IMG/VR virus record: IMGVR_UViG_3300027759_002220
Location: 1 to 31,288 of that record
Source of the DNA: a virus
Reading direction: 5' to 3' (one strand)
DNA: 31,288 nucleotides
Below the pieces are notes generated by a model, which had not been told where the DNA came from, made no database searches, and saw only the letters and a list, made by a program, of their open reading frames with translations. This document shows, in pieces, positions 14,075-31,288 of the stretch. The position numbers and the translations under genes are program-made. Positions within the stretch are counted from its first letter, which is position 1, and each line of letters starts with the position of its first letter.

Positions 14075-14575
14075 TTATATTACCGTTTCATTAATAGCAC
14101 TTAAATCGCCTGTAGATGGAAATGATCGACCGGTGCCCCAAATAATTCGAACGGCTCCTGATCCTCCTGATCCTCCAGCTTTTATCGTGTCATCTTCATC
14201 CGCCGATCCTCCTCCACCATATGTGCCTCCACTAGCTGGGAGTGCACCGTCTGAACCTCCTGCTGTTCCTCCAGAACCTCCTTGGCCACCGGCCGGTATA
14301 GTTCCACCTATACCGCCAGCTCCGGATGATCCTTCACCAAATAATCCTACTCCTCCTCCGGCTGCAGCGCCATTGGATCCTACAGACCCACCACCTGCAC
14401 CTCCTCCAGTTCCAGCAAGTCCGTTACGAGTTGTGTTACCTGCTTGTGCGCCTGCGCCTCCGTTTCCAGAATAACCTGCGGCACCACCACCGCCACCAGG
14501 TGCTGCATTAAAAGACGCATTTCCGCCCAAACCACCTGTCTCCACCACTTCTTTGAGTTCCGGATGATGTTCCAC
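14075..14575 (-). CDS. Glycine-rich adhesin-like protein, C-terminal fragment (after frameshift)
   Basis: Second half of a glycine-rich gene. Useful coding sequence begins near 14536 with TGGLGGNASF; the upstream 12 or so codons of this frame (from a GTG at 14575) look like out-of-frame noise. The protein is then almost pure Gly/Ala/Ser/Asn loops (GGGG, GGSGG, GGTYGGGG), ending with SGGSGAVRIIWGTGRSFPST, a terminal beta motif common at the end of phage glycine-rich tail proteins. Similar glycine-rich loop domains act as receptor-binding tips in T-even phages. It is one reading frame away from the upstream fragment at 14508-15011 and overlaps it by 68 bases. Confidence 0.7.
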   Translation of the reverse strand: MEHHPELKEVVETGGLGGNASFNAAPGGGGGAAGYSGNGGAGAQAGNTTRNGLAGTGGGAGGGSVGSNGAAAGGGVGLFGEGSSGAGGIGGTIPAGGQGGSGGTAGGSDGALPASGGTYGGGGSADEDDTIKAGGSGGSGAVRIIWGTGRSFPSTGDLSAINETVI

Positions 14576-15011
14576 CTAAACCTCCGGTATTGGGTTGGTC
14601 TATTCCAGATGCACCTGAAGCTAATCCTCTGCCACCTCCACCAGCAAAAAGTAGAGCAGTGCCAGTTCTTTGTATTTCGGAATTTCCTCCGGCTGTGCCA
14701 TTTGTTATATTATTTGCGCCGCCAGTACCACTTGCACCAACAAAAATATTGAGTGTTTCTCCTGGCGTAACCGCAAAAGATCCATAAACAAGGCCTCCTC
14801 CACCACCGGCAGCACCAGCACGTGCTGCTCCTGATCCTGCTGCACCGCCACCACCGCCAACACAGAGAGCGGAAACAGAAGTTATACCTTCTGGCACAGT
14901 AAATGAATATGTTCCCGGAGTCGTGTAACGAATGCCGGCAGTTGGATTTGCAGCCGTTTCAATTATAAAATTTATTCCATTACCAAAAGAAATACCTTCA
15001 CCTATATTCAT
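14508..15011 (-). CDS. Glycine-rich adhesin-like protein, N-terminal fragment (before frameshift)
   Basis: 167 residues. An N-terminal FIIETAANPTAGIRYTTPGT lead-in, then YSFTVPEGITSVSALCVGGG, the typical opening strand of phage glycine-rich domains, then poly-Gly loops and AVTPGETLNIFVGASGTGGA. The last 11 residues (RSGGDRWFGRKCVF) lose the glycine pattern and the frame stops at 14508. Skipping one base near 14535-14541 restores an unbroken glycine-rich frame into the next fragment, giving a product of about 310 residues. GAGGAAAA precedes the ATG. It lies between genes 15 and 16, where T4 has nothing. Likely a tail or fibre tip protein; the role is inferred from composition. Confidence 0.7.
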   Translation of the reverse strand: MNIGEGISFGNGINFIIETAANPTAGIRYTTPGTYSFTVPEGITSVSALCVGGGGGAAGSGAARAGAAGGGGGLVYGSFAVTPGETLNIFVGASGTGGANNITNGTAGGNSEIQRTGTALLFAGGGGRGLASGASGIDQPNTGGLGGTSSGTQRSGGDRWFGRKCVF

Positions 15012-17717: not shown

Positions 17718-17973
17718 CCTTGCCCCATTTAACTTTATTCCATATTCTTTCATGGCACCAGTAAATAAAAGGTTTAACCACCATTTCCGTGGCACCAATT
17801 CCAAGAGAAACTATTATTTTACCCGTAATAATATAAGAAATAATAATGGTGGTTAAAGTACCACAACATCTATAACTATAAGCTTTAACCAAACTTCTTA
17901 TAGGAGAATCACCATTATTTAAGGCCCAGCTCTTTACGAATCTTTGTGGCAGAGATTGAATGTATTTCATCAT
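17713..17973 (-). CDS. DUF2061-type small membrane protein
   Basis: 86 residues. Seen: SPIRSLVKAYSYRCCGTLTT, then two hydrophobic segments (about 37-52 and 54-70), then VVKPFIYWCHERIWNKVKWG. This is the DUF2061 signature (RS.VKA..WR..GT..T, TG, G..E...K...Y..HER.WN..KWG). Function is unknown; in bacteria, DUF2061 genes are, as I recall, often near sulfate-assimilation genes such as cysC/cysD. I chose the first of two adjacent ATGs (17973), with AGGAAA just upstream. It overlaps the end of the kinase/nucleotidyltransferase gene by 59 bases, so the two are translated together. Confidence 0.82.
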   Translation of the reverse strand: MMKYIQSLPQRFVKSWALNNGDSPIRSLVKAYSYRCCGTLTTIIISYIITGKIIVSLGIGATEMVVKPFIYWCHERIWNKVKWGKA

Positions 17974-18751
17974 TAAATGTTTCCTGTTCAATTTTGTAAC
18001 CCACATCACGACCATAGGTAATATTCACAATGTTTGGCACCACTTGAATTTCATATTGTCCTTGATAGAGTGGATCCAAATCTCGTTTAATATAAGATTT
18101 AACTTGTTCAATGGCAAAAGGATTAGAACCTTGCCATCCTTGGCAGTCACGGATTTGAATAACCACTTGGCCAGTTTTGGCAATGGCTCGGTCAAACAAT
18201 GCTCGATGACCTTCATGCCATGGCTGCCAACGACCTAACATTTGAACAGTTTCTTTTTTCCAATCAAATGTTGGCCGCCTACGATTCTCAATAATATGAT
18301 TACCAATAAACTCAGCCCATTTTTCAGCATTCTGTTCGGTCACACGGAAGTCATACACCTCTGGTGGTATGAAAGCTTTATTGGTATCTTCAAAACGACC
18401 TTTCTCAATGGTGTCCATCCAAATAGTCCAATCTGCTTTAAAATTGTTTCTCATTTCAATTAATGGTGCCACAAAATCACAGATAACATAATCACCGCCA
18501 GCCTCTAAAGCAAACTGTGCCATTCTTAACGACTGACGAATACGGCCAGCATCTGAAAAATCCCAATCGTTATACTTCTTACGAACTTCATCAGCATTAA
18601 ACCAAGTTACTTTGGCATCAAAACCTGTGAGTGGTAACATTTCTGCAAACGTATCAGAAGTTGTACCATTTTTTTCAAGGTATTTTTTTAGTGCTTCTGC
18701 CATAAATGTTTTGCCTGAACCAGGTAATCCCATAATCAAAATCTTTTTCAT
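17915..18751 (-). CDS. Fusion: APS-kinase-like P-loop kinase + HxGH nucleotidyltransferase
   Basis: 278 residues in two domains. Residues 1-155: P-loop kinase with GLPGSGKT (8-15), NADEVRKKY (52-60), DFSDAGRIRQSLRMAQ (64-79) and GDYVICDFVAP (86-96). This follows the adenylylsulfate (APS) kinase layout (GLPGSGKS, D.DEVR, DR..NIRR, VI.AFISP), which makes PAPS. Residues 168-278: cytidylyltransferase-like fold with GRWQPWHEGH (HxGH 179-182), NPF (210-212) and ISATKIR (266-272), like archaeal NMN adenylyltransferases. The start ATG has GGAAT upstream; earlier in-frame TTG lacks support. Known possibilities are PAPS or activated-sugar synthesis, or NAD metabolism; the true substrates cannot be read from sequence. 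Confidence 0.8.
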   Translation of the reverse strand: MKKILIMGLPGSGKTFMAEALKKYLEKNGTTSDTFAEMLPLTGFDAKVTWFNADEVRKKYNDWDFSDAGRIRQSLRMAQFALEAGGDYVICDFVAPLIEMRNNFKADWTIWMDTIEKGRFEDTNKAFIPPEVYDFRVTEQNAEKWAEFIGNHIIENRRRPTFDWKKETVQMLGRWQPWHEGHRALFDRAIAKTGQVVIQIRDCQGWQGSNPFAIEQVKSYIKRDLDPLYQGQYEIQVVPNIVNITYGRDVGYKIEQETFNDEIHSISATKIRKELGLK

Positions 18752-18761
18752 TTGTATTCCT

Positions 18762-19499
18762 TTATTGAGGTTTGCATAATAAATTATTTCCAACTACTAT
18801 GTAATCATACTCATACTGATTTAAAAATTGTTTAATATCGTCTATAATAGTTTTTCTATTATCACAATGTTCAACAAATATAATAGGTAAATGTTTTTTA
18901 ATTGTGTTGGAACTTCCAATTAAAACATCCAAATCCATACCTTCCACATCTATTTTTAATAAGTGTACTTTAGGTATATTATAGTGTTCTAAAAACCAAT
19001 CAATTGTGTGTATGTCAACAACAACTTTATTGTTTGTTTTTTCAGTAATAATATCTTCTATTAAACTGAAAGTACCAAAATCATTTTTTCTAAAGTAATT
19101 AGGTTCTTCAAATTCAATCTTAGTGTTTTCTTTACCTAGTCCAATGTTGTGTGGATAAACATTATAGAGATTGTTTATAGAAGCATTTCCACACAGCATT
19201 TTAAACACTTCTCTTTGAGGTTCAAAAGAATATATTTTTCCTTGAGGAAAGGCTTTAGCCATCCAAGTTGTAAATGTTCCTATATTGGCACCAATATCAA
19301 ATACTACAGGTTCAGAAAATTCTTTGATTGACTCGTAGCAATTAAATGCTTCTATTGTTGATGTATTTCCATGATCCAGTAACCATTGGCCATGACCAAC
19401 TTGGTTATCATTGCAATCAAAACGATTTACAATCATTAAGCCATGGTCACAGCTTAACAACACGTTGCGGTGAACTTTATCACCTACATTAAAGACCAT
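18762..19499 (-). CDS. FkbM-family methyltransferase
   Basis: 245 residues. SAM-dependent O-methyltransferase. Seen: motif I VVFDIGANIGTFTTWMAKAF (65-84), acidic loop IYSFEPQREVFKML (89-102) and KIDVEGMDLDVLIG (182-195), the defining trio of FkbM proteins, which in bacteria often methylate sugars of surface polysaccharides or natural products. The N-terminal 60 residues with HGQWLLDHGNTSTIE are like other surface-glycan FkbM members. One base separates it from the upstream methyltransferase; its stop precedes the kinase ATG by 10 bases. Substrate unknown. Confidence 0.9.
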   Translation of the reverse strand: MVFNVGDKVHRNVLLSCDHGLMIVNRFDCNDNQVGHGQWLLDHGNTSTIEAFNCYESIKEFSEPVVFDIGANIGTFTTWMAKAFPQGKIYSFEPQREVFKMLCGNASINNLYNVYPHNIGLGKENTKIEFEEPNYFRKNDFGTFSLIEDIITEKTNNKVVVDIHTIDWFLEHYNIPKVHLLKIDVEGMDLDVLIGSSNTIKKHLPIIFVEHCDNRKTIIDDIKQFLNQYEYDYIVVGNNLLCKPQ

Positions 19500-19500
19500 T

Positions 19501-20103
19501 CTATTCTTTCAACTTTTTAAAAGCTACTTGAAAAGAATCTGGTAAATGTATCAATTCTATTTTATGCCAATTACATTGTATAAACATTTCAATACCCATT
19601 CTTGGTGAAAGTTGTACAGGAGCACTACCATGTTCATCAACAAGTTTCCAACCTATAGAATCATCACACAGCATTACTCCGCCTACTGGCAGTAATCTCC
19701 AAGATAATACCATATCTTCAAGCACAGCAGCAGATGTATGGTCACCATCAACAAAAATAAATTCAGCTGTTTCTTTTTGATGAATTAAATCAACTAAAGC
19801 TTCACAACTATATTTGTTAATGTATGTTACATTGCCTACACACTTGCTTAAATTATATTCAAACGTTCTTTTAATTGTTTTAAAATCAAAACTTGGATTA
19901 TCATTTAATGTGGTATGTGGATCGATGGCATATATTTTAAATTTATCATTGTGTATTTTACCAAACTCTGAAACCCAAAATGTGGTTATTCCTTCAAAAC
20001 AACCAATTTCTATCATTGTATTTGGTACACCAAATTTCTCAAATAAAAATTTAATATTGGTTTGAGTTCTTTCTTTACCCATATCGACTGTCGAAATATA
20101 CAT
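19501..20103 (-). CDS. Class I SAM methyltransferase (Methyltransf_24-like)
   Basis: 200 residues from the ATG at 20103. Seen: MIEIGCFEGITTFWVSEFGK (motif I, 30-49), FKIYAIDPHTTLND (acidic beta2), EFIFVDGDHTSAAVLEDM with the (V)DGDH motif, and LLPVGGVMLCDDSIG. This layout is similar to the methyltransferase at 2359-3012 (IDANHSHKSVYQD, GGVFSGHDW), but identity is low. The start is uncertain: no clear Shine-Dalgarno sequence precedes the ATG, which lies 1 base after the stop of the upstream gene; an in-frame TTG at 20133 would add 10 residues. Substrate unknown; context suggests a glycan or glycoprotein. Confidence 0.85.
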   Translation of the reverse strand: MYISTVDMGKERTQTNIKFLFEKFGVPNTMIEIGCFEGITTFWVSEFGKIHNDKFKIYAIDPHTTLNDNPSFDFKTIKRTFEYNLSKCVGNVTYINKYSCEALVDLIHQKETAEFIFVDGDHTSAAVLEDMVLSWRLLPVGGVMLCDDSIGWKLVDEHGSAPVQLSPRMGIEMFIQCNWHKIELIHLPDSFQVAFKKLKE

Positions 20104-20104
20104 A

Positions 20105-20713
20105 TCAATTATTTTTTTTGTGCCAATCAGCAAATCTTCCTGGCTTATGCACTCTGATAAAAATATTTACACTCTCACAGACATTTGCCATAGTATTTAA
20201 ATTAATATCCATTTGTTTTGGTGCTAGCATACCATCTTGCTGTTGTTGTAACCAATAGCCAACCATATTATAAGTTACATCATAAACTTCTAAATCTACG
20301 TCATGGTATAATCCAAATGTACTATCGCTTAATTTTTTAGCAATAGATTCAAAGTTAACTTTTTGGTCAAACATTTTAAAAGTTTTGGCAGTCAATGGCC
20401 TAACATGGGTGTAATCGTCCCAAAACAAATCACACCGATGATGTGGTACATTAATAAACCACTCTGCTTGGTCTGCACTAACTCGATACATTTCTTTAAT
20501 AACATTAGTAAAGACTTTTGGATCTTGACCTAAATGTTCTAAAATATTATCTGCTGTAATTTTTTCAAAGAAGTTATCTTCGTATGGCCATGGTGTTTTT
20601 TCAAAATCTAATACTTCATCAGGATTACATTTTGCTTCTACATCCACATTCCAATGGTCATTTATTTTTTTAAAACCACAACCCATGTTTAATTTTTTAT
20701 TTTCTGGTGTCAT
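20105..20713 (-). CDS. Class I SAM methyltransferase (Methyltransf_11/UbiE-like)
   Basis: 202 residues from the ATG at 20713, which has AAAGGA 7 bases upstream (an earlier in-frame codon lies inside the sulfotransferase gene). Seen: KKLNMGCGFKKINDHWNVDV (motif I with the acidic residues), FFEKITADNILEHLGQD (motif II with the D.LEH pattern) and EMYRVSADQAEWFINVPHHR. This pattern is common in small glycan-cluster methyltransferases. The gene starts 15 bases after the sulfotransferase stop. Substrate unknown. Confidence 0.87.
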   Translation of the reverse strand: MTPENKKLNMGCGFKKINDHWNVDVEAKCNPDEVLDFEKTPWPYEDNFFEKITADNILEHLGQDPKVFTNVIKEMYRVSADQAEWFINVPHHRCDLFWDDYTHVRPLTAKTFKMFDQKVNFESIAKKLSDSTFGLYHDVDLEVYDVTYNMVGYWLQQQQDGMLAPKQMDINLNTMANVCESVNIFIRVHKPGRFADWHKKNN

Positions 20714-20727
20714 AATATATCCTTTTA

Positions 20728-21525
20728 TTAAATCCAAGCGTTCCAAAATATTTCACGATTATATTGTTCGTAAATATCAAGCCCAAGATACTCAACACAA
20801 TTGACTGTGGTACGGTCAAGTGCTGGCTTAATTTTATGTAAGTTAGGTAAGCCAACTGCCAAATCATTATAATTTTCTGTTTGAATAATCTTTTCAAAAT
20901 CATGTTCAAATTTTGGTAACTCTAAAAATTCATAGATACGTTTAGTTTGGCTCTTTGGACTATTACAGAAACGATTGTAATCAATAAAAAGAAAACGATC
21001 CAAATAACCCATAGTAATTGCATCTTTAATATTTCTGTGAGATAAACCCATTGGACCTTCAGGACCAGCATAAAAATATGCTCTTGAAGCAATATTAGAT
21101 CCTTCTCTTAGAGTTGAATCTGCTTTGGTAAAAAACAAAGGATTTTCTTTTCTAAGCTTTTCAAAAGAAGTTAATATTTCGGCTGGGTTTCTAACACAAA
21201 CAATAATTTTAACTTTGCGATTCAAAATTGCTTCAACTTGTGGCAACAATGGAATCCATCCACGGTCTTTATCAACAATAATAGGTTTATCGATATGAGA
21301 ATAATATCCTTGTAATACTGATTTTAAAACTCCAACTTTGGCTTCTGTATTATTATATTCTTGATTTGTTTCCATACTTGACCAAGAAGCATTAATGCTA
21401 CCAAATATAGAAGATAAAGAACTTACGGATTCTCCGTGTACTTTTGGATTTTGTTTAAGTATATTTGTTATGAGAGTGGAACCTGATCTTGGGAGACCTG
21501 CCACAAAGTGTATGGTTTTTTCCAT
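20728..21525 (-). CDS. PAPS-dependent sulfotransferase family protein
   Basis: 265 residues. Sulfotransferases move a sulfo group from PAPS to hydroxyl or amino groups. Seen: the 5'-phosphosulfate loop GLPRSGSTLI (10-19) at the N-terminus and the 3'-phosphate motif VCVRNPAEILTSF with Arg112 and Ser120 eight residues apart, the same spacing as the PAPS-binding Arg/Ser pair of known sulfotransferases. VDKDRGW (84-90) may contribute a catalytic Lys. Length is typical. GAAAGG precedes the ATG, and a late box (21576-21583) lies upstream. It heads the block with methyltransferases and the APS-kinase-like gene, so a linked sulfation role is plausible. The acceptor is unknown. Confidence 0.88.
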   Translation of the reverse strand: MEKTIHFVAGLPRSGSTLITNILKQNPKVHGESVSSLSSIFGSINASWSSMETNQEYNNTEAKVGVLKSVLQGYYSHIDKPIIVDKDRGWIPLLPQVEAILNRKVKIIVCVRNPAEILTSFEKLRKENPLFFTKADSTLREGSNIASRAYFYAGPEGPMGLSHRNIKDAITMGYLDRFLFIDYNRFCNSPKSQTKRIYEFLELPKFEHDFEKIIQTENYNDLAVGLPNLHKIKPALDRTTVNCVEYLGLDIYEQYNREIFWNAWI

Positions 21526-21575
21526 GATTACCTTTCAGTTTAAAATTATAAAATCAAGATTTGACGCTTGTTATT

Positions 21576-21583
21576 TATTTATG
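21576..21583 (-). promoter_or_regulatory. Late promoter (CATAAATA) for the sulfotransferase/methyltransferase block
   Basis: CATAAATA on the minus strand; its TAA is the stop codon of the TPR-glycosyltransferase. Expected start near 21570, leader about 44 bases ending with GAAAGG before the sulfotransferase ATG. It suggests that the decorating enzymes are made late, together with virion proteins. Confidence 0.7.
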
Positions 21584-22640
21584 CGCTTATTTTTTCAACT
21601 TTTTCTTTTTTATTTTTTTTGGGAAACATTTCTTTTAGTTCATTAGAAACTTTTTGAAAAGTATTTGTCCAATCTCCAAACTTAGTTTGCCTAAAAACTT
21701 TGGTTGTATTTTGATACCAAGGACTATGATCTCCTCCATATGCCCAAACATGATATGGGAGTATTGGTACAATTACCCAAGTCGGCTTTCCCATTGCAGA
21801 AGCTAAATGAGCAATACTGGTACATGACGTAATAACTAAATCTAAATTAGCAATACATGCGGCCGTATCTTCCCAAGAAATTATTAAATGCTGAAGGTCT
21901 ACAATTTTTTTAGGCAATTCTTTTATATCTGTATCTCTTTGTAAACTAAAAAATTGTATATGAGGAAAATCTTTATGTAAATCAATTAATTTTTGCGCAG
22001 GAAAAATACGAAACTGTTGATGTTCAAAAAGAGGACTGCCGCTCCAACGAATGCCAACTTTTATTTTTTCTGTGTTTAACATTGTTTTCCAAAGATCCAC
22101 ACTTTCATTTTTGGCAAAAAGGTAAGGCTCATTTGGTAAATTATCAAACTCATGGCCAAATAACCAACTAGCACTAAATCCTGGAATCCAAAAATCATGA
22201 TGTGTTTTAGATACCTGATCTAAAGTAATACATTCTTTAACGCCTGGAATTCGTAGAAAAAGTGGATGCAAAGATTTTTCACAACACATAATACATTTAC
22301 CGCCTCGTTTCCAAATTTCTGTGGCAAATCTTGCATAAATTATTTGGTCACCAAAACCACATTCCATATTTAAAATGACAGTCTTGCCTTTTAAATCACT
22401 TTGATCCCAAATTGGCTTAGTAGTGTTAATTTTACCACTACCATAAACTTTGAGTGCTCGTCCATTTTCAAGGCATTGAAATCCTTCTTGTAATTTTCCT
22501 TGATTAATAAGAAACCATCCACGATTAAATTTTGCTTTTGGATCTGTAGGATCTAAAGCTTCCAATTCTTCAGCCAATTTCCAAGCTTCTTCAAATCTTC
22601 CTCTTATCATTAAATTTAATTGCTGATCAATCAAATGCAT
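21579..22640 (-). CDS. TPR-containing glycosyltransferase (GT9/OGT-like)
   Basis: 353 residues. Seen: two TPR-like helical pairs (about 1-65: GRFEEAWKLAEELEALDPTD then KFNRGWFLINQGKLQEGFQC), then a GT-B type catalytic part: GKTVILNMECGFGDQIIYAR (GT9 N-domain, GDQI.YAR), KVGIRWSGSP (beta strand entering the C-domain), and DLVITSCTSIAHLASAMGKP followed by TWVIVP, the nucleotide-sugar binding end of heptosyltransferase/OGT-like enzymes. TPR plus GT resembles protein O-glycosyltransferases, so a protein acceptor is possible. I chose the ATG at 22640 with AGGAG 7 bases upstream. It starts 48 bases after the stop of the giant RCC1 gene, its likely partner by position. Confidence 0.85.
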   Translation of the reverse strand: MHLIDQQLNLMIRGRFEEAWKLAEELEALDPTDPKAKFNRGWFLINQGKLQEGFQCLENGRALKVYGSGKINTTKPIWDQSDLKGKTVILNMECGFGDQIIYARFATEIWKRGGKCIMCCEKSLHPLFLRIPGVKECITLDQVSKTHHDFWIPGFSASWLFGHEFDNLPNEPYLFAKNESVDLWKTMLNTEKIKVGIRWSGSPLFEHQQFRIFPAQKLIDLHKDFPHIQFFSLQRDTDIKELPKKIVDLQHLIISWEDTAACIANLDLVITSCTSIAHLASAMGKPTWVIVPILPYHVWAYGGDHSPWYQNTTKVFRQTKFGDWTNTFQKVSNELKEMFPKKNKKEKVEKISA

Positions 22641-22672
22641 AATCAAACTCCTATAAAATAATTAATCAAATA

Positions 22673-22688: not shown

Positions 22689-25600
22689 TTATGAAATTCC
22701 AAAGGTATTAAAAGTCCTCGCACTCACAACAGTCCATGATCTAGATCCTATTTGAACTGGACTGGATTTGCTAATATTTGTACCATCTCCTAACTGGCCA
22801 TAATTATTAGAACCCCATGTAAATAGTGTACCACCAGAACGAATAGCTGCTGAATGATTAAACCCCGTAGATACAGCAGTCCAAGAACTGGATCCTATTT
22901 GTACTGGACTGGAACTATTGGTAGTTGTACCATCTCCAAATACACCAGCATTTACACCCCATGCAAATAATGTTCCACCAGAATTAATGGCTAATGTTGA
23001 ATTCAGTCCACCAGCTACAGCAGTCCATGAACTGGATCCTATTTGTACTGGACTGGATTTATTGATAACTGTACTATCTCCTAATTGACCACCATTATTA
23101 AGACCCCATGTAAATAGTGTACCCCCAGAACGAATAGCTGCTGAATGAGTTGCACCTAAACCTACAGCAGTCCAAGAACTGAATCCTATTTGTACAGGAC
23201 TGGATTTATTGGCAGTTGTACCATCACCTAATAATCCATAATTACCAGCTCCCCATGTAAATAGTGTGCCTCCAGATCTAATAGCTGCTGAATGAAACCG
23301 GCCGCCAGACACAGCAGTCCATGAACTGGATCCTATTTGGACTGGACTGTTCTTACCAACACTTGTACCATCTCCTAAACGACCATTGGCGCCATATCCC
23401 CATGCAAATAATAATCCATCAGAACGAATGGCTAATACATGAAAATCACCAGCAGCTACAGCGGTCCATGAGCTAGATCCAATCTGTACTGGACTGGATT
23501 TACCGGTAAACGTACCATCTCCTAATTGGCCGTCACCATTTTGTCCCCATGTAAATAATAATCCATCCGATCTAATAGCTGTTACAAAACTACTAGAACC
23601 AGCAGACACAACAGTCCATGAACTAGACCCAATTTGTACTGGACTAGAAATGTTTGGTATATTATTGTTTCCTATTTGTACTGGACTGGATCTAGTAGTC
23701 TGTGTAATATCTCCTAATTGGCCAGTAGTATTTCCACCCCATGTAAATAATAATCCATCAGAACGAACAGCAGTTGTATGAGAACCTCCAGCAGCTATAG
23801 CAGTCCAAGAACTGGATCCTATTTGAACTGGACTGGATTTGCTAACAGCTGTACCATCTCCCAATCGGCCCGTAGCACCAGCACCCCATGTAAATAGTGT
23901 ACCCCCAGAACGAATAGCTGCTGAATGAGTTGCACCAGCAGTTATAGCAGTCCATGAACTGGACCCAATTTGTATTGGAGAAATTATAGAGTTTTGTATA
24001 GTGGCCACCAGTACCGGACTAGACTTGGTAGTAGTTGTACCATCTCCTAATTGACCATAACTATTAAACCCCCATGTATATAGGGCGCCACCAGAAAGAA
24101 CACCAGTTGTATGAAACTGTCCAGCAGCCACAACAGTCCAAGAACTGGATCCTATTTGTACTGGACTGGATCTATTGGTAGTTGTATCATCTCCTAAACG
24201 GCCAGAAGAATTAACACCCCATGTAAATAATGTACCACCAGAAAGAATGGCTGCTGTATGTTCACGACCAGCAGCTACAGCAGTCCATGAACTGGATCCT
24301 ATTTGAACTGGACTGGACTTGGAAACAATTGTATTATCTCCTATTTGTCCATAAGTATTGAGGCCCCATGCAAACAACGTACCGCCAGAACGAATAGCTG
24401 CTGTATGAGAAGCGCCAGCAGCCACAACAGTCCATGAGCTAGATCCTATTTGAACTGGAGAATTTGTTTCAGCTGCACCTGCAATGTTTCCAACTACTAA
24501 TGGACTGGATTTAGCAACAACTGTGTTATCTCCTATTTGTCCATAATTATTATATCCCCATGTAAACAGAGTGCTGCCAGACCGAATGGCTGCTGAATGA
24601 AGCCGGCCCAAAAAATCACCTACAGCAGTCCATGAACTGGATCCTATTTGAACTGGACTGGATCTATTGGTGGTTGTACCATCTCCTAATTGACCTTGAC
24701 CATTAAAACCCCATGTAAATAGTGTACCACCAGAACGAACAGCTGCTGTATGTCTGTAACTGGCAGATACAGCAGTCCAAGAACTGGATCCTATTTGTAC
24801 TGGACTGGATCTATTGGTAGTTGTACCATCTCCTAATGCACCATATTGATTACGTCCCCATGTAAACAATGTACCGCCAGAACGAATAGCAGTTGTATAA
24901 CTATAACCAGCAGCCACAACAGTCCATGAACTGGATCCTATTTGAATTGGATTAGGATTTTCATTAAGTGAAACACTCCCTCCTACCACAACTGGACTGG
25001 ATTTACTGGTAGTTGTATTATCTCCTAATTGGCCAGATAAATTAGACCCCCATGTAAACAAAAAGCCATTTAAACCAGCACGAATAACACCTGAATGAGC
25101 TCCTCCAGCGCTTACAGCAGTCCATGAGATGGATCCTATTTGTACTGGACTGGATCTATTGGTAGTTGTACCATCTCCTAACTGACCAGCAGAATTAGAA
25201 CCCCATGTAAATAATGTACCACCAGAACGAATGGCTGCTGTATGAGTACCGCCAGCAGCTACAGCAGTCCATGAACTGGATCCTATTTGTACTGGACTGG
25301 ATCTATTGGTACCAGAAGTACCATCTCCTACTTGTCCATTATTATTAGATCCCCATACAAACAACGTACCACCAGAACGAATAGCTGCTGTATGAATACT
25401 TCCAGCAGATACAACAGTCCATGAACTGGATCCTATTTGTACAGGACTGGATTTAGCGGTACCAAGTCCTCCCGTACCATCTCCTAGTTGGCCTTCAAGA
25501 TTACGTCCCCATGTAAACAAAGTACCACCAGACCGAATGGCTACTGAATGAGTACCTCCAGCAGATACAGCAGTCCAAGAGCTGGATCCTATTTGTACAG

Positions 25601-28600
25601 GACTGGATTTATTGGTAGTTGTACCATCTCCTATTCCACCATAACCACCATAACCCCATGTAAATAATGTACCGCCAGAACGAATAGCCATTAGTGTTTT
25701 ACCAGCAGATACAGCAGTCCATGAACTGGAACCTACTTGTACTGGACTGGAACTTGGTGAAGGAGCGGTGCCATTTCCTAATTGGCCTTGACCATTGTAT
25801 CCCCATGTAAATAATGTTCCACCAGAACGAATAGCTGCTGTAGTAGCACCAGCACTTACAGCAGTCCATGAGCTAGAACCTATTTGAACTGGACTGGATT
25901 TATCAGTAATTGTGCCATCTCCTAATTGGCCATTACCACCACTTCCCCATGCAAACAATAAATTATCAGAACGAATAGCCATTGTATGGTTAAATCCAGC
26001 AGACACAATAGTCCAACTGTATAAATCTATACTTGTACCTAATTGACCATAATCATTACGTCCCCATGTAAACAAGGTGCCACCGGAACGAATAGCAGTT
26101 GTATGTTCACGACCAGCAGATACAGCAGTCCATGAACTGGATCCTACTTGTACCGGACTGGATTTATTAACAGCTGTACCATCTCCTAATTGGCCAGCAC
26201 TACCAAGTCCCCATGCAAATAATAATCCATCAGAACGAATGGCTGCTGTATGACTAAAACCGCTAGATACAGCAGTCCATGAACTGGATCCTATTTGAAC
26301 TGGACTGGATTTACTGATAATTGTACCATCACCTAATTGGCCATTAGTATTATATCCCCATGCAAATAATAATCCATCAGAACGAATAGCTAATGTATGT
26401 GTAAATCCAGCAGATATAGCAGTCCAAGAACTGGATCCTATTTGTACAGGACTCGATTTAGCGGTAGTTGTATTATCTCCTAATACACCCCCTTGATTTC
26501 TGCCCCATGCAAATAATAATCCATCAGAACGAATGGCAGTTGTACGATCCCATCTAGAAGATACTACGGTCCAACTAAATGTTTGTGTAAAAAGAGTTGT
26601 TCCTAGTTGGCCAACATTATTAGTTCCCCATGTAAACAAAGTACCACCAGACCGAATGGCTGCTGTATGGTAACGACCAGCAGCTACAGCAGTCCATGAA
26701 CTGGATCCTATTTGAACTGGACTGGACTTGTCAACAGTTGTATCATCTCCTAATTGACTTTGATTATTACGTCCCCATGTAAACAAAGTACCGCCAGACC
26801 GAATAGCTGCTGAATGACCACTCACAAGTGCAGATCCAGCAGCTACAGCAGTCCATGAACTGGATCCTATTTGAACTGGACTGGACTTGGAAACAGTTGT
26901 ATTATCTCCTAATTGACCAAAACCATTACGTCCCCATGCAAATAATAATCCATCAGAACGAATAGCTAATGTATGAAATTGACCAGTAGCTACAGCAGTC
27001 CATGAACTGGATCCTATTTGTATTGGTTTTTTTTGATTAAATTGTGTACCATCTCCTAACTGGCCATAAGTATTACGTCCCCATGCAAATAATAATCCAT
27101 CAGAACGAATGGCTGCTGTATGAGTACCACCAGCAGCCACAACAGTCCAACTCATCAACTCTGAAAATACAGTTGTTCCTAATTGACCATAAGTATTAGA
27201 ACCCCATGTAAATAGTGTACCACCAGAACGAATAGCTGCTGAATGATTATTTCCAGCAGATACAGCAGTCCATAAACTAGCTCCAATCTGTACTGGAGAA
27301 CTGAAAGACTCTAAAGCATTATTTCCAACTGTTGTAGGACTGGAGTTAGAAAAAGCTGTACCATTTCCTAATTGACCACTAGTATTGCCTCCCCATGTAA
27401 ATAGTGTACCACCAGAACGAATGGCTGCTGAATGAATTCGGCCGGCCGATACAGCAGTCCATGAACTGGACCCTATTTGTATTGGCAAAGATGTGCTTAT
27501 AGCATCTGTTCCTAATTCACCAGCAATATTATTTCCCCATGTAAACAAAGTACCACCAAAACTAATAGCTGCTGTATGTCTGTAACCAGCAGCTACAGCG
27601 GTCCATGAGCTAGATCCAATCTGTACTGGACTGGATCTATTGGTAGTTGTACCATCTCCTAATTGACCAACAGTATTTCCCCCCCATGTAAATAATAATC
27701 CATCAGAACGAATGGCTGCTGAATGAGTTGTACCAGAGCTTACAGCAGTCCATGAACTGGATCCTATTTGTACTGGACTGGATTTACTGGTAGTTGTACC
27801 ATCACCTAAACGACCACTGGTGTTATAACCCCATGTAAATAGTGTACCACCAGAACGAATGGCTGCTGTGATATATGTACCAGCAGCTACAGCAGTCCAT
27901 GAGCTGGATCCTATTTGAACTGGACTGGACTTGGAAACAATTGTATTATCTCCTATTTGGCCACTAGTATTGCCTCCCCATGCAAATAATGTTCCACCAG
28001 AACGAATAGCAGCTACATGAGTAACACCAGCAGCTACAGCAGTCCATGAACTGGATCCTATTTGTACTGGACTGGATTTACTGGTAAACGTACCATCACC
28101 TAATTGGCCATTAAGATTAAGACCCCATGTAAATAATGTACCTCCAGAACGAATAGCAGCTACATGGGTAGCACCAGCAGCTACAGCAGTCCAAGAACTA
28201 GATCCTATTTGTACTGGACTGAATTTGCTAATAATTGTACCATCTCCCAATTGACCTTGACTATTATTTCCCCATGCAAATAAATAACCGTCTGAGCGAA
28301 TAGCAACTGTAAAACTCATATTACTGCTAGAAGATACAACAGTCCAACTTGATAGAGATGTGACAAAACTATTACCAGTGCCTATTGTACCATAAATATT
28401 TCTGCCCCATGTAAATAATAAACTATCAGAACGTATAGCAGCTGTATGTGTAAATCCAGCAGCTACAGCAGTCCATGAACTGGACCCAATTTGAACTGGA
28501 CTGGATTTGTTAACAGTTGTATTATCTCCTAACTGGCCATAAGTATTAAAACCCCATGCAAATAATGTTCCATCAGAACGAACAGCAGTTGTATGAGAAC

Positions 28601-29045
28601 CTCCAGCAGCTACAGCAGTCCAAGAACTGGATCCTATTTGTACTGGACTGAAACTATTGGTAGTTGTACCATCTCCTAATGCACCATATTGATTACGTCC
28701 CCATGTAAACAATGTACCATCGGAACGAATGGCTGATGTGTGGTAACGACCAGCAGTTATGGCAGTCCATGAGCTAGATCCAATCTGTACTGGACTGGAT
28801 TTGTCACTGGATGTATTATCTCCTAATTGGCCAAAAGTATTACGTCCCCATGCAAATAATAAACTATCAGAACGAATGGCTGCTGTATGTGCAAAACCAG
28901 CAGACACAACAGTCCAACTAAATGTTTGGGTTGAAAAAACATTTCCTAATTGGCCAGCATTATTACGCCCCCATGCATATAAAAATTTATTTGAAACAGA
29001 TGAATCAGAACTTGATTTGGCTAAAAGTTGTTCAATCAATAACAT
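22689..29045 (-). CDS. Giant RCC1-repeat beta-propeller protein (putative tail fibre/adhesin)
   Basis: 2118 residues: a 21-residue leader (MLLIEQLLAKSSSDSSVSNK) and then nothing but 42 RCC1-type repeats to the stop; my repeat lengths add up exactly to 2118. The standard unit is 49 residues (LFTWG.N..GQLGDGTT..KSSPVQIGSSSWTAV.AG..H.AAIRSGGT). RCC1 repeats are beta-propeller blades, seven per ring, so the count would fit six rings. No catalytic domain, signal peptide, membrane segment, trimerisation tip or chaperone domain is visible. It lies in the distal tail gene group, one codon-step after a tail-assembly-chaperone-like gene (TAAATG junction), so a fibre or receptor-binding role is the best inference. 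Ser and Thr are very frequent, making it a candidate target for the adjacent glycosyltransferase and sulfotransferase. Confidence 0.9.
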   Translation of the reverse strand: MLLIEQLLAKSSSDSSVSNKFLYAWGRNNAGQLGNVFSTQTFSWTVVSAGFAHTAAIRSDSLLFAWGRNTFGQLGDNTSSDKSSPVQIGSSSWTAITAGRYHTSAIRSDGTLFTWGRNQYGALGDGTTTNSFSPVQIGSSSWTAVAAGGSHTTAVRSDGTLFAWGFNTYGQLGDNTTVNKSSPVQIGSSSWTAVAAGFTHTAAIRSDSLLFTWGRNIYGTIGTGNSFVTSLSSWTVVSSSSNMSFTVAIRSDGYLFAWGNNSQGQLGDGTIISKFSPVQIGSSSWTAVAAGATHVAAIRSGGTLFTWGLNLNGQLGDGTFTSKSSPVQIGSSSWTAVAAGVTHVAAIRSGGTLFAWGGNTSGQIGDNTIVSKSSPVQIGSSSWTAVAAGTYITAAIRSGGTLFTWGYNTSGRLGDGTTTSKSSPVQIGSSSWTAVSSGTTHSAAIRSDGLLFTWGGNTVGQLGDGTTTNRSSPVQIGSSSWTAVAAGYRHTAAISFGGTLFTWGNNIAGELGTDAISTSLPIQIGSSSWTAVSAGRIHSAAIRSGGTLFTWGGNTSGQLGNGTAFSNSSPTTVGNNALESFSSPVQIGASLWTAVSAGNNHSAAIRSGGTLFTWGSNTYGQLGTTVFSELMSWTVVAAGGTHTAAIRSDGLLFAWGRNTYGQLGDGTQFNQKKPIQIGSSSWTAVATGQFHTLAIRSDGLLFAWGRNGFGQLGDNTTVSKSSPVQIGSSSWTAVAAGSALVSGHSAAIRSGGTLFTWGRNNQSQLGDDTTVDKSSPVQIGSSSWTAVAAGRYHTAAIRSGGTLFTWGTNNVGQLGTTLFTQTFSWTVVSSRWDRTTAIRSDGLLFAWGRNQGGVLGDNTTTAKSSPVQIGSSSWTAISAGFTHTLAIRSDGLLFAWGYNTNGQLGDGTIISKSSPVQIGSSSWTAVSSGFSHTAAIRSDGLLFAWGLGSAGQLGDGTAVNKSSPVQVGSSSWTAVSAGREHTTAIRSGGTLFTWGRNDYGQLGTSIDLYSWTIVSAGFNHTMAIRSDNLLFAWGSGGNGQLGDGTITDKSSPVQIGSSSWTAVSAGATTAAIRSGGTLFTWGYNGQGQLGNGTAPSPSSSPVQVGSSSWTAVSAGKTLMAIRSGGTLFTWGYGGYGGIGDGTTTNKSSPVQIGSSSWTAVSAGGTHSVAIRSGGTLFTWGRNLEGQLGDGTGGLGTAKSSPVQIGSSSWTVVSAGSIHTAAIRSGGTLFVWGSNNNGQVGDGTSGTNRSSPVQIGSSSWTAVAAGGTHTAAIRSGGTLFTWGSNSAGQLGDGTTTNRSSPVQIGSISWTAVSAGGAHSGVIRAGLNGFLFTWGSNLSGQLGDNTTTSKSSPVVVGGSVSLNENPNPIQIGSSSWTVVAAGYSYTTAIRSGGTLFTWGRNQYGALGDGTTTNRSSPVQIGSSSWTAVSASYRHTAAVRSGGTLFTWGFNGQGQLGDGTTTNRSSPVQIGSSSWTAVGDFLGRLHSAAIRSGSTLFTWGYNNYGQIGDNTVVAKSSPLVVGNIAGAAETNSPVQIGSSSWTVVAAGASHTAAIRSGGTLFAWGLNTYGQIGDNTIVSKSSPVQIGSSSWTAVAAGREHTAAILSGGTLFTWGVNSSGRLGDDTTTNRSSPVQIGSSSWTVVAAGQFHTTGVLSGGALYTWGFNSYGQLGDGTTTTKSSPVLVATIQNSIISPIQIGSSSWTAITAGATHSAAIRSGGTLFTWGAGATGRLGDGTAVSKSSPVQIGSSSWTAIAAGGSHTTAVRSDGLLFTWGGNTTGQLGDITQTTRSSPVQIGNNNIPNISSPVQIGSSSWTVVSAGSSSFVTAIRSDGLLFTWGQNGDGQLGDGTFTGKSSPVQIGSSSWTAVAAGDFHVLAIRSDGLLFAWGYGANGRLGDGTSVGKNSPVQIGSSSWTAVSGGRFHSAAIRSGGTLFTWGAGNYGLLGDGTTANKSSPVQIGFSSWTAVGLGATHSAAIRSGGTLFTWGLNNGGQLGDSTVINKSSPVQIGSSSWTAVAGGLNSTLAINSGGTLFAWGVNAGVFGDGTTTNSSSPVQIGSSSWTAVSTGFNHSAAIRSGGTLFTWGSNNYGQLGDGTNISKSSPVQIGSRSWTVVSARTFNTFGIS
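22692..28982 (-). repeat. Tandem array of 42 units, mostly 147 bp, encoding RCC1 blades
   Basis: In-frame tandem repeat inside the giant gene. Unit length is 147 bases in about half or more of the copies; short units of 39-45 codons (numbers 1, 5, 13, 17, 21 from the N-terminus) lack the SSPVQIG part, and long units of 62-64 codons (12, 28, 31, 34, 36) have a duplicated, altered PV.VG segment. A block close to gcagtccatgaactggat (plus strand) recurs with few changes in most units, as does the following cctatttg. Differences concentrate in three short loops per unit. Such DNA identity points to recent expansion or gene conversion and also makes the region prone to assembly error. Confidence 0.95.
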
Positions 29046-29546
29046 TTAATTTTGTAATTCTAATGATGGCCAATTGACTTGATTAATATTGGTAATTTCA
29101 TTCTCTGAATATACTTGTACAATATCTCTAAGAGATTGTCTATAAACTATCCATTTATTTTTTGTAATTTCATCAAATTTATTTTGTACGTCTTGTAACT
29201 GAGTCCAATCTGAATCAATTAATAATTTATTTCTTCTACTTCTCAGTTCTTCTATAAATCTATATTTTAAAGTAGAGAATTCTTCAACAGGTTCTGGTTG
29301 TCTTTCAGTTATAATACTACTTTCTAAAACATCATTTTCTCTAATTTCATAATTATAACCACTTACATAATGGGTTAAATCATTCCACGTTTCACTTTGC
29401 TTAGTTACAGGATACCAACCTACGGTTTTTAAAAAAGGCAAATCATCAGCAGCCAAATTTAGTCCGCTTACATTTCTCCAATTATTAGGTAGTAAGTCAT
29501 ACTGACCCGTAATCTCATTATTTTCTATGTGTACCCAATTTGCCAT
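29046..29546 (-). CDS. Tail fibre assembly chaperone-like protein
   Basis: 166 residues. The C-terminal half (about 90-160) has the layout of phage tail-fibre assembly chaperones: LRSRRNKLLIDSDWTQLQDV, then NKWIVYRQSLRDIVQVY and a terminal INQVNWPSLE, matching the R..LL..SDWTQL.D...., W..YRQ.LRD pattern. The N-terminal part has Trp-rich short motifs (LLPNNWRNVSGLNL, LKTVGWYPV). Such proteins help fold fibres encoded beside them, and this gene ends with TAA immediately before the ATG of the giant RCC1 gene. It is therefore a candidate folding factor for that protein; that link is inference from adjacency. Confidence 0.78.
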   Translation of the reverse strand: MANWVHIENNEITGQYDLLPNNWRNVSGLNLAADDLPFLKTVGWYPVTKQSETWNDLTHYVSGYNYEIRENDVLESSIITERQPEPVEEFSTLKYRFIEELRSRRNKLLIDSDWTQLQDVQNKFDEITKNKWIVYRQSLRDIVQVYSENEITNINQVNWPSLELQN

Positions 29547-29558
29547 TTTTAATATCCG

Positions 29559-30164
29559 TTATTTGCTGTCTACCATAGAAGCAACACCTCTCCAGTTTGT
29601 ACCACCGTCATCTGTAATGAATGTTAACACATCAACACCAGCTGCTGTAAGAGATGGTGCTGTACCTCCAGGCCATTTGACTGCCGAAGGCCAAGTTAAT
29701 GCAGCAGATCCTCCATTAGTCAATTCTAAAACAAAACCAATGGCTGCAGGAGATGCAATTGGATTAGAAAACACCCAAGTTGTAACACCTGCTACAGTTG
29801 CTGATACATAATTACCTAAACTTAAATCTATGGTTCTAGTACCAGAACCAGATCCTAATACGTTATGAGTTGTGCCATAATAACTAATAGTTCTATTATT
29901 GTTTATATATGGAGAACCCAATATAGAATATGAATTTGCAGATACAGTACCGGCACTAGAGATATTACCAATACTGGAAATATTATTTGTTACGATTTGT
30001 GAATTGTTTAATAAAACTTCTACGTTGGTGACTTGTGTGCCACCAACAGGTAAAGTTTTGAAAAGCCGATTTGATGTTGGGTCATACACCTCATCACCGA
30101 GCCTTTGGCCGTTGATTGTGGTGTTTGCCGATACTACATGCCGAATATAATCCCGAGAGGACAT
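29559..30164 (-). CDS. Small fibre-type virion protein
   Basis: 201 residues from the ATG at 30164, which has AAGGGGAA upstream and lies 10 bases after the stop of the larger structural gene (an earlier in-frame start lies inside that gene and is less likely). Seen: an N-terminal RDYIRHVVSANTTINGQRLG linker, SNRLFKTLPVGGTQV, Ser/Asn-rich repeats (SSIGNISSAGTVSANSYSI), and a C-terminal GFVLELTNGGSAALTWPSAV, KWPGGTAPSLTAAGVDVLTF, TDDGGTNWRGVAS, the very common phage beta module at the end of short fibre or hinge-type proteins. Precise position in the virion unknown. Confidence 0.8.
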   Translation of the reverse strand: MSSRDYIRHVVSANTTINGQRLGDEVYDPTSNRLFKTLPVGGTQVTNVEVLLNNSQIVTNNISSIGNISSAGTVSANSYSILGSPYINNNRTISYYGTTHNVLGSGSGTRTIDLSLGNYVSATVAGVTTWVFSNPIASPAAIGFVLELTNGGSAALTWPSAVKWPGGTAPSLTAAGVDVLTFITDDGGTNWRGVASMVDSK

Positions 30165-30174
30165 ATTATTCCCC

Positions 30175-31288
30175 TTAAGCTTGTGCCTCTGTCCAACTGA
30201 TACGAGCGTTAATTGAATTTGTTGTAACCGCAGTAACGTTAGTTGCAACAACTGTAATCATATCAGGTCCATCAGGGTAGACGTTTGCATTGGTACTAGG
30301 CACGTTTAGTGAATTACCACCACCTAAAATAGAATTACCAATATCTCGAACTAAGTCCAAAGGAGCATCAGTCACACCTGGTGTTGTTGTAAAGAAACCA
30401 TAGATATCTTCACCGCCAGAAATTGTTTGTCCTACTGTATGAAATGCTACTTGTGATAAACTTGAACCACCAGCATTAACAAATGTTCCGCCAGACAAAC
30501 GGCCATTTAATCGCAATGTAATCAAAAATGTCATACCTGATCCGGTGCTGTAAGCGTCAATTCCTCGCAATACCATCTGCATACGATTAACAATTTCACG
30601 TTGTCCTAACAAACCAGATAAACCACTATCTACCGAAGGTGCTATTCGAATTGTAATTAACGGCTGAACTGCATTAGCTCCAATGTTGGAAATTGTTGTT
30701 CTCATACCAGCAACGAACACGAAAGATTTATCGTCATCAAAACGGCCATCCATAATCACAGAAGAACCCCAATGGCTAATTGTTGATGCTTGACCTGGTG
30801 AAAAAGATTCAACCAATGTTGGTGCTGTTGCTGAGAATGGAAATGTGGTTGCTGTAGAAGTACCTAATGCAATACCGCCAGTATTGGCAGAATTACGTTG
30901 TAGGCCAGTAAATGTTGTTTGTGTTTTACCAGTGTAGTAAATATATTCAATTGCACCACCAGCAGAAGATGGTGCAGATATCGCTAACACACCGACTGGT
31001 GGGAATAACGTGGTATCATTAACTGACATTGTTAATGCACCAGCGGCCAATGTTGACGATAAAAATGTTTTAGCAGGAAGTGTATTGGTTTCATAACGAG
31101 CCGGTAAATTACCAGAACGCATGTAAGCTTCTGTGTTAACATTGTTATTTGGCATACGATGACAGTAGAATACTTCACCCCGAGTATTTTTAAAACCAAA
31201 ACGAATTGCGCCAGCACCATACCAAGTAAAGTCAATATAGAACATTTGCATTTTAGTCAAATCTAAATTATATAAACTTGCTCCTGTA
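30175..31288 (-). CDS. Large virion structural protein, 5' end cut by window edge
   Basis: At least 371 codons are visible and the frame is open to the last base, so the N-terminus lies beyond the window; the TTG at 31258-31260 is only an internal codon candidate. Seen: FYIDFTWYGAGAIRFGFKNT, EVFYCHRMPNNN then EAYMRSGNLPARYE, a recurrent motif set in large baseplate or tail structural proteins of marine T4-like phages as I recall, followed by a beta-rich Gly/Ser/Thr region (GAIEYIYYTGKTQTTFTGLQ) and a C-terminal DMITVVATNVTAVTTNSINA then RISWTEAQA. No enzyme motif. It leads the distal tail gene group. Confidence 0.75.
   Translation of the reverse strand, partial: TGASLYNLDLTKMQMFYIDFTWYGAGAIRFGFKNTRGEVFYCHRMPNNNVNTEAYMRSGNLPARYETNTLPAKTFLSSTLAAGALTMSVNDTTLFPPVGVLAISAPSSAGGAIEYIYYTGKTQTTFTGLQRNSANTGGIALGTSTATTFPFSATAPTLVESFSPGQASTISHWGSSVIMDGRFDDDKSFVFVAGMRTTISNIGANAVQPLITIRIAPSVDSGLSGLLGQREIVNRMQMVLRGIDAYSTGSGMTFLITLRLNGRLSGGTFVNAGGSSLSQVAFHTVGQTISGGEDIYGFFTTTPGVTDAPLDLVRDIGNSILGGGNSLNVPSTNANVYPDGPDMITVVATNVTAVTTNSINARISWTEAQA

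Follow-up and report, generated by a model that had tools for sequence, protein, structure and literature searches.

RCC1 propeller repeats are already known and catalogued in phages (PHROGs 4219, 7220 and 16766); PHROG places these families in the category DNA, RNA and nucleotide metabolism, even though PollyC gp12 (phrog_4219) is tail-fibre-like. The strongest direct precedent for a role in the tail comes from Pseudomonas phages. In the T7-like PollyC and Ppr_SeaP3, the C-terminal half of one protein consists of RCC1 repeats and the N-terminal half has matches to tail-fibre families, including a weak one to the T7-type fibre N-terminus (PF03906), and the PollyC gene lies between an internal virion protein and a packaging gene, as does T7 gp17. 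The N4-like Littlefix has a 1365-residue tail protein that shares 35% identity with its PollyC counterpart over the C-terminal ~470 residues. Littlefix and PollyC belong to different phage families and were isolated on one Pseudomonas host strain; their common RCC1 fibre end (L113, PollyC; L114, Littlefix) suggests exchange of a receptor-binding tip. Small single-propeller RCC1-like proteins are also found in the jumbo phages GAP32 (gp1), phAPEC6, 121Q and PBECO4, and the protein of Cronobacter phage GAP32, GAP32_001, has been detected in virions (PMC5259590). The window analysed here, the complete 31,288-nucleotide stretch of IMG/VR virus record IMGVR_UViG_3300027759_002220, carries a gene of a different order: whereas the Pseudomonas fibres have about one C-terminal propeller behind an ordinary fibre N-terminus, its product is an array of 42 RCC1 units with a pattern of inter-blade loops that points to six propellers nested in one another.

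The array gene starts with ATG and encodes 2118 residues. Cutting the protein at the LFTWG motif yields a 21-residue leader and 42 units of 39–64 residues that add up to exactly 2118, in agreement with the first-pass annotation of this DNA, which had also reported no domain other than RCC1. The Pfam search bears both out: PF00415 has 42 matches in the array frame and none in 14 control genomes, and both PF00415 and PF25390 reach E = 0 and pass the curated cut-off, which excludes chance as the source of the repeats. A cyclic-profile count of 42.9 units was discarded in favour of block counting, as loops with a second SSP motif had been scored double. The RCC1 region matches phrog_4219, and large RCC1 proteins of uncultured Caudovirales are present in BFVD; a pattern scan of bacterial and archaeal genomes returned only three distant matches (24–28%) with different unit lengths. 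The gene is 100% identical in two more IMG/VR contigs (L009 and L010), where it is also flanked by phage genes, and the sheath, chaperone and downstream genes have the same G+C content at third codon positions as the array gene (0.18). It is therefore native to the phage, and a bacterial contaminant joined to the contig is ruled out.

The loops between blades provide the key to the architecture. In the usual loop, ~16 residues lead from the GQLG turn to the next SW strand and include one SSPVQIG strand. Five loops of the window protein (units 1, 5, 13, 17 and 21) are short, with 6–10 residues and no SSPVQIG strand, and five (units 12, 28, 31, 34 and 36) are long, with 29–31 residues and two such strands. 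Since the short loop is one strand down and the long loop one strand up, the second restores what the first lacks, and we read them as opening and closing brackets, respectively. By this rule the array reads 1( 5( 12) 13( 17( 21( 28) 31) 34) 36), a balanced expression of six levels with seven units in each. When five opening and five closing brackets were placed at random, 17% of trials came out balanced, and 0 of 300,000 had only rings whose size was a multiple of seven; equivalent placements for L027 and L037 likewise produced rings of exactly 7 in 0 of 300,000. On this parse, the 42 units would form six complete seven-bladed propellers, the majority of which have another propeller inserted in them, and the N- and C-terminal strands share one blade of the base ring Z, which is the usual way a propeller is closed.

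The same grammar holds in roughly a dozen relatives, whose arrays range from 14 to 49 units. Run automatically as a fixed rule, it returned all-seven rings in L013, L027 (49 units, seven rings), L032, L035, L037, L042, L045, L047, L063, L066 and L089, and the segments directly inside a bracket pair measure 342–351 residues in 22 of 22 cases. L011, L029 and L030 gave multiples of seven with one level of 14, which two consecutive rings, with the seam at unit 26, would explain, and L012 was read by eye, with a loop variant, as 1( 4( 7( 14) 18) 22). Unit counts are quantised as well: 30 of the 34 complete open reading frames in which nearly all units were recognised—not all of them independent—have 7, 14, 21, 28, 35, 42 or 49 units. 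Close relatives, whose downstream gene is 91–95% identical to that of the window, differ in the multiple (14, 35, 42 or 49 units). A phage RCC1 protein of 4384 residues with the leader MLLEKWLL (L085, 5906, and L090, 5400, plus strand) has ~83 detected units and probably holds 84, that is, 12 × 7.

Structure prediction supports the fold of the single ring. From an alignment of the 22 bracket-enclosed segments, AlphaFold2 modelled ring E as a closed seven-bladed propeller of exactly 28 strands (7 × 4), with a predicted local distance difference test score (pLDDT) of 93.7 and a predicted template-modelling score of 0.91; closure into four-stranded blades was modelled for this ring only. The best PDB matches are structures of Arabidopsis UVR8 (template-modelling score 0.93, root-mean-square deviation 1.7 Å, whole length), followed by HERC, RPGR and RCC1 domains. 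Like ring E, UVR8 is a seven-bladed RCC1 propeller, and its chain starts at the SAG strand and ends past the P-x-x-I strand, the very seam used for opening and closing the phage rings; an inserted ring thus corresponds to a complete conventional propeller. UVR8 differs in being one propeller and a plant signalling UV-B photoreceptor with a Trp triad; neither GWRHT motifs nor the triad were encountered in the array, where columns 38 and 39 are varied and contain no Trp among the 23 standard units. The RCC1-like proteins of GAP32 and PBECO4 are structural matches to ring E, and those of the jumbo phages are ~16–18% identical to it.

The strongest variation within the units falls on one face. Columns 6, 8, 9, 17–19, 38 and 39 are highly variable within a frame that is conserved to the codon level, and these eight columns are among the most variable in six other arrays (seven with the window). 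In an alignment with UVR8, six residues in or beside its dimer interface (PMC5091643), D96, D107, R146, E182, W285 and R286, fall on columns 8, 19, 6, 39, 38 and 39, which places the variable columns on an interaction face. The array also diverges faster than its surroundings: against the five closest relatives it is 60–64% identical, compared with mostly 85–96% for flanking genes, among them 91–95% for the downstream gene, 93–95% for the sulfotransferase and 86–96% for gp13. Orthologous units could not be traced between close relatives, for which DNA identity is ~69–72% at any register.

The genomic slot is conserved. The window, a fragment of a T4-like virus, has genes for the major capsid protein, scaffold, portal, sheath, terminase, neck proteins, UvsY and helicase; its capsid protein is nearest to that of Methylophilales phage Melnitz (64.5%), along with Pelagibacter phages Mosig and HTVC008M, and related contigs and cultured relatives point to fresh water as the source. 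The chaperone-like neighbour on which the first-pass annotation had based its functional proposal is a PF16778 tail assembly chaperone that abuts the array. On the other side lies a 355-residue TPR/glycosyltransferase-like gene (motifs WSGSP and TSIAHLASAMGKP, with Pfam matches under the cut-off), which is directly downstream of the array and is conserved in >40 contigs. A viral-contig search with its product found 45 loci, and where the upstream gene is present it is mostly an RCC1 array, usually right behind a chaperone. The order fibre–chaperone–array–TPR/glycosyltransferase recurs in dozens of contigs and in the cultured cyanophage BUCT-ZZ01, whose array protein (UTS52180.1, annotated as a BNR repeat protein) is 51% identical to that of the window but has only 14 RCC1 units, or two propellers, and the leader MKTSLLFGGKDISN. 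Array N-termini are of two types, a short leader MLLxExLL or a segment of ~80 residues starting MPTTSFRVSGxDLDTLFEPIG. At loci read by eye, the first is paired with a MANWVHIENNE-like chaperone and the second with a MTVYANLVDGEIKGVYDLLPK-like one.

Taken together, the conserved slot, the fast divergence of the array, the position of its variable residues at the UVR8 interface and the RCC1-ended fibres of other phages make a virion adhesin the best reading. We consider it likely that the array serves this T4-like freshwater phage as an adhesin on the virion surface or as an appendage for receptor binding, composed of six recursively inserted seven-bladed propellers. Each inserted propeller would lie complete within a loop between two blades of its host ring. 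Ring Z, the base ring, shut by the N- and C-terminal strands, would carry ring A; A would carry B and C, C would carry D, and D would carry E, giving a branched tree of disks. The leader (MLLIEQLLAK) may anchor the base ring to the tail or baseplate, aided by the neighbouring chaperone. The eight variable positions per blade are on the face through which other RCC1 propellers bind and could make the surface of each disk different.

Several observations weigh against this reading. The AlphaFold2 model of ring D with ring E nested in it (706 residues, 10-row alignment) had no confidence (pLDDT 39.9), so the nested topology still comes from sequence, where it is tightly constrained. The four exceptional arrays have 6, 20, 20 and 34 units, each one below a multiple of seven; these one-blade-short frames are in L039 (1285–6549), the second array of L045 (6491–9700), L055 (3508–6552) and one S-SRM01 paralogue, and the counts could be real or reflect collapsed assemblies. 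L039, a sibling of L037, misses 62 residues, the length of one closing-loop unit; the assembly may have collapsed here, or one ring may truly have six blades. The automatic parse fails on L015, L040, L056, L084 and L085, which are too divergent. No virion-attachment domain of a recognised type was found with Pfam or PHROGs, PF03906 included, and just the leader precedes unit 1. The variable columns were first picked on the window's own array, and the ratios of nonsynonymous to synonymous change (1.4–4.9 at variable columns versus 0.1–0.4 in the frame) compare paralogous blades with fairly saturated synonymous sites, for which reason they speak for relaxed or diversifying change at those columns and give no precise rate.

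Among the alternatives, the one that survives best, though we regard it as unlikely, is a decoration along the tail or capsid. Its task would be to bind surfaces loosely or to hold glycans, and not to act as a specific receptor-binding tip. The adjacent TPR/glycosyltransferase-like gene, the sulfotransferase and the FkbM methyltransferase are in keeping with such a decoration, as is the 28% Ser+Thr content of the array. Hair-like appendages are found on some RCC1-bearing jumbo phages (PMC7247149), a link qualified by phage CBB, which is hairy yet lacks the GAP32 RCC1 gene (PMC5259590). A decoration does not readily account for the extreme variability in array length, for variation at the binding face and not at Ser/Thr sites as such, or for the tail type of the adjacent chaperone.

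An intracellular factor outside the virion, for example one that condenses DNA, is less probable still. The name RCC1 and the PHROG category favour it, the window protein is basic (isoelectric point 10.0) and ordering of DNA has been proposed for the phAPEC6 RCC1 proteins (PMC7247149). Net charge is not conserved, however, ranging from about +2 to −2 per 100 residues with an isoelectric point down to 5.3 (L046), and because it spans basic to acidic a conserved DNA-condensing role fits poorly. The slot among fibre and chaperone genes, the diversification of the variable columns in a constant frame, the RCC1 propellers that end fibres elsewhere and the one in the GAP32 virion likewise argue for the surface of the virion.

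Six propellers in series, each of seven consecutive units, would fit 42 = 6 × 7 equally; the short and long loops would then be variation with no bearing on the rings. L021 and L057, which have few marked loops, may include serial rings. For the window protein we find this arrangement very improbable: the ten unusual loops are not spaced by seven, cuts at every seventh unit land in ordinary loops (8, 15, 22 and 29), and it leaves unexplained both the later matching of each strand-lacking loop by one with an extra strand and the constant seven blades of the bracket rings in independent arrays. Diversification by a retroelement, suggested by hypervariable codons in fixed columns (many of them NNT), can be rejected, as seven relatives of 99–212 kb contain no reverse transcriptase (PF00078), the variation extends over 42 units, far past a normal variable region, and one AAY template could not yield codons such as CAA, GGA and GAA.

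Table 1. Positions of the array gene, its parsed rings and its neighbours in the window
Feature	Coordinates	Strand	Basis or remark
RCC1-array gene, 42 units read as six 7-blade rings	22689..29045	-	Open reading frame, PF00415, bracket parse
Leader of 21 residues, MLLIEQLLAKSSSDSSVSNKF, candidate docking peptide	28983..29045	-	MLLxExLLxK pattern, which recurs in relatives
Ring Z (base ring), piece 1, N-terminal strand C of closing blade, residues 22-34	28944..28982	-	Bracket parse
Ring Z, piece 2, residues 1800-2118; C-terminus closes ring with N-terminal strand	22692..23648	-	Bracket parse
Ring A, piece 1, residues 43-222	28380..28919	-	Bracket parse
Ring A, piece 2, residues 582-623	27177..27302	-	Bracket parse
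Ring A, piece 3, residues 1688-1792	23670..23984	-	Bracket parse
Ring B, contiguous, within ring A, residues 232-574	27324..28352	-	Bracket parse
Ring C, piece 1, within ring A, residues 632-815	26601..27152	-	Bracket parse
Ring C, piece 2, residues 1528-1681	24003..24464	-	Bracket parse
Ring D, piece 1, within ring C, residues 824-1003	26037..26576	-	Bracket parse
Ring D, piece 2, residues 1364-1519	24489..24956	-	Bracket parse
Ring E, contiguous, within ring D, residues 1010-1355	24981..26018	-	AlphaFold2 closed propeller, 28 strands
Tail assembly chaperone (PF16778, Phage_tail_APC)	29046..29546	-	Directly upstream of array, zero gap
Short tail-fibre protein, C-terminus NWRGVASMVDSK	29559..30251	-	PHROG tail fibre
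Large virion structural/fibre protein, C-terminal part, truncated by window end	30175..31287	-	phrog_5838
Downstream partner gene, 355 residues, N-terminal TPR-like and C-terminal glycosyltransferase-like	21579..22646	-	Conserved beside array

The neighbourhood of the array (Table 1) offers a possible link to glycans. Since the downstream gene is glycosyltransferase-like and the array is rich in Ser and Thr, its product may glycosylate the array. Between the fibre genes and the neck genes lies a further group on the minus strand (17915–21525) with a sulfotransferase (PF00685), two or three methyltransferases (FkbM type, PF05050, and Methyltransf_24) and a kinase/cytidyltransferase-like gene, possibly a glycan-modifying cassette. 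Elsewhere in the window, 14075–15011 (minus strand, 937 bases) holds two overlapping open reading frames of 167 and 166 residues where L009 and L010 have a single one of 312 residues (939 bases); the split is a frameshift in the window contig, either real or made by the assembly. In L011, a close relative, an open reading frame starting MKHKHHIIPKHAGG (20954–21529), HNH homing endonuclease-like, lies between gp13 and gp14 and has no counterpart in the window. Rfam, tRNA and promoter scans gave nothing of use.

The first-pass annotation had proposed a new kind of fibre or receptor-binding protein. The role stands as the best-supported reading, given the slot and the RCC1-ended Pseudomonas fibres, while the newness of the kind is reduced by the phage RCC1 proteins already known. 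What that annotation missed is the architecture, and the real novelty is the proposed recursive nesting of propellers; unit counts that come in sevens, the bracket rule, multi-level nesting and the rapid turnover of the tree all appear to be new. DDB1 is an example of one propeller inserted in another and in that respect resembles the phage array, but its insertion is single-level and fixed, and no recursion or variable tree is known for proteins of this sort. The literature on nested propellers and RCC1 fibres, searched with most subscription journals out of reach, contained no account of such an architecture. On balance we favour the view that these arrays are recursive propeller trees governed by a bracket grammar: any two blades of a ring can be separated by an entire further seven-blade ring, and close relatives differ in branching and in the number of rings (~1 to 12). 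The result would be an evolvable, multi-headed binder, possibly glycosylated by its neighbour, and a way of building large proteins that has not been described.

If true, the nesting would be a clear case of domains inserted in one another to several levels, by a rule that can be read from the sequence itself: balanced brackets and exactly seven blades per ring. The arrays make up a widespread and testable family of candidate adhesins that databases have filed under DNA metabolism, and BUCT-ZZ01 on Synechococcus elongatus PCC 7942 offers a culturable system in which to test it.

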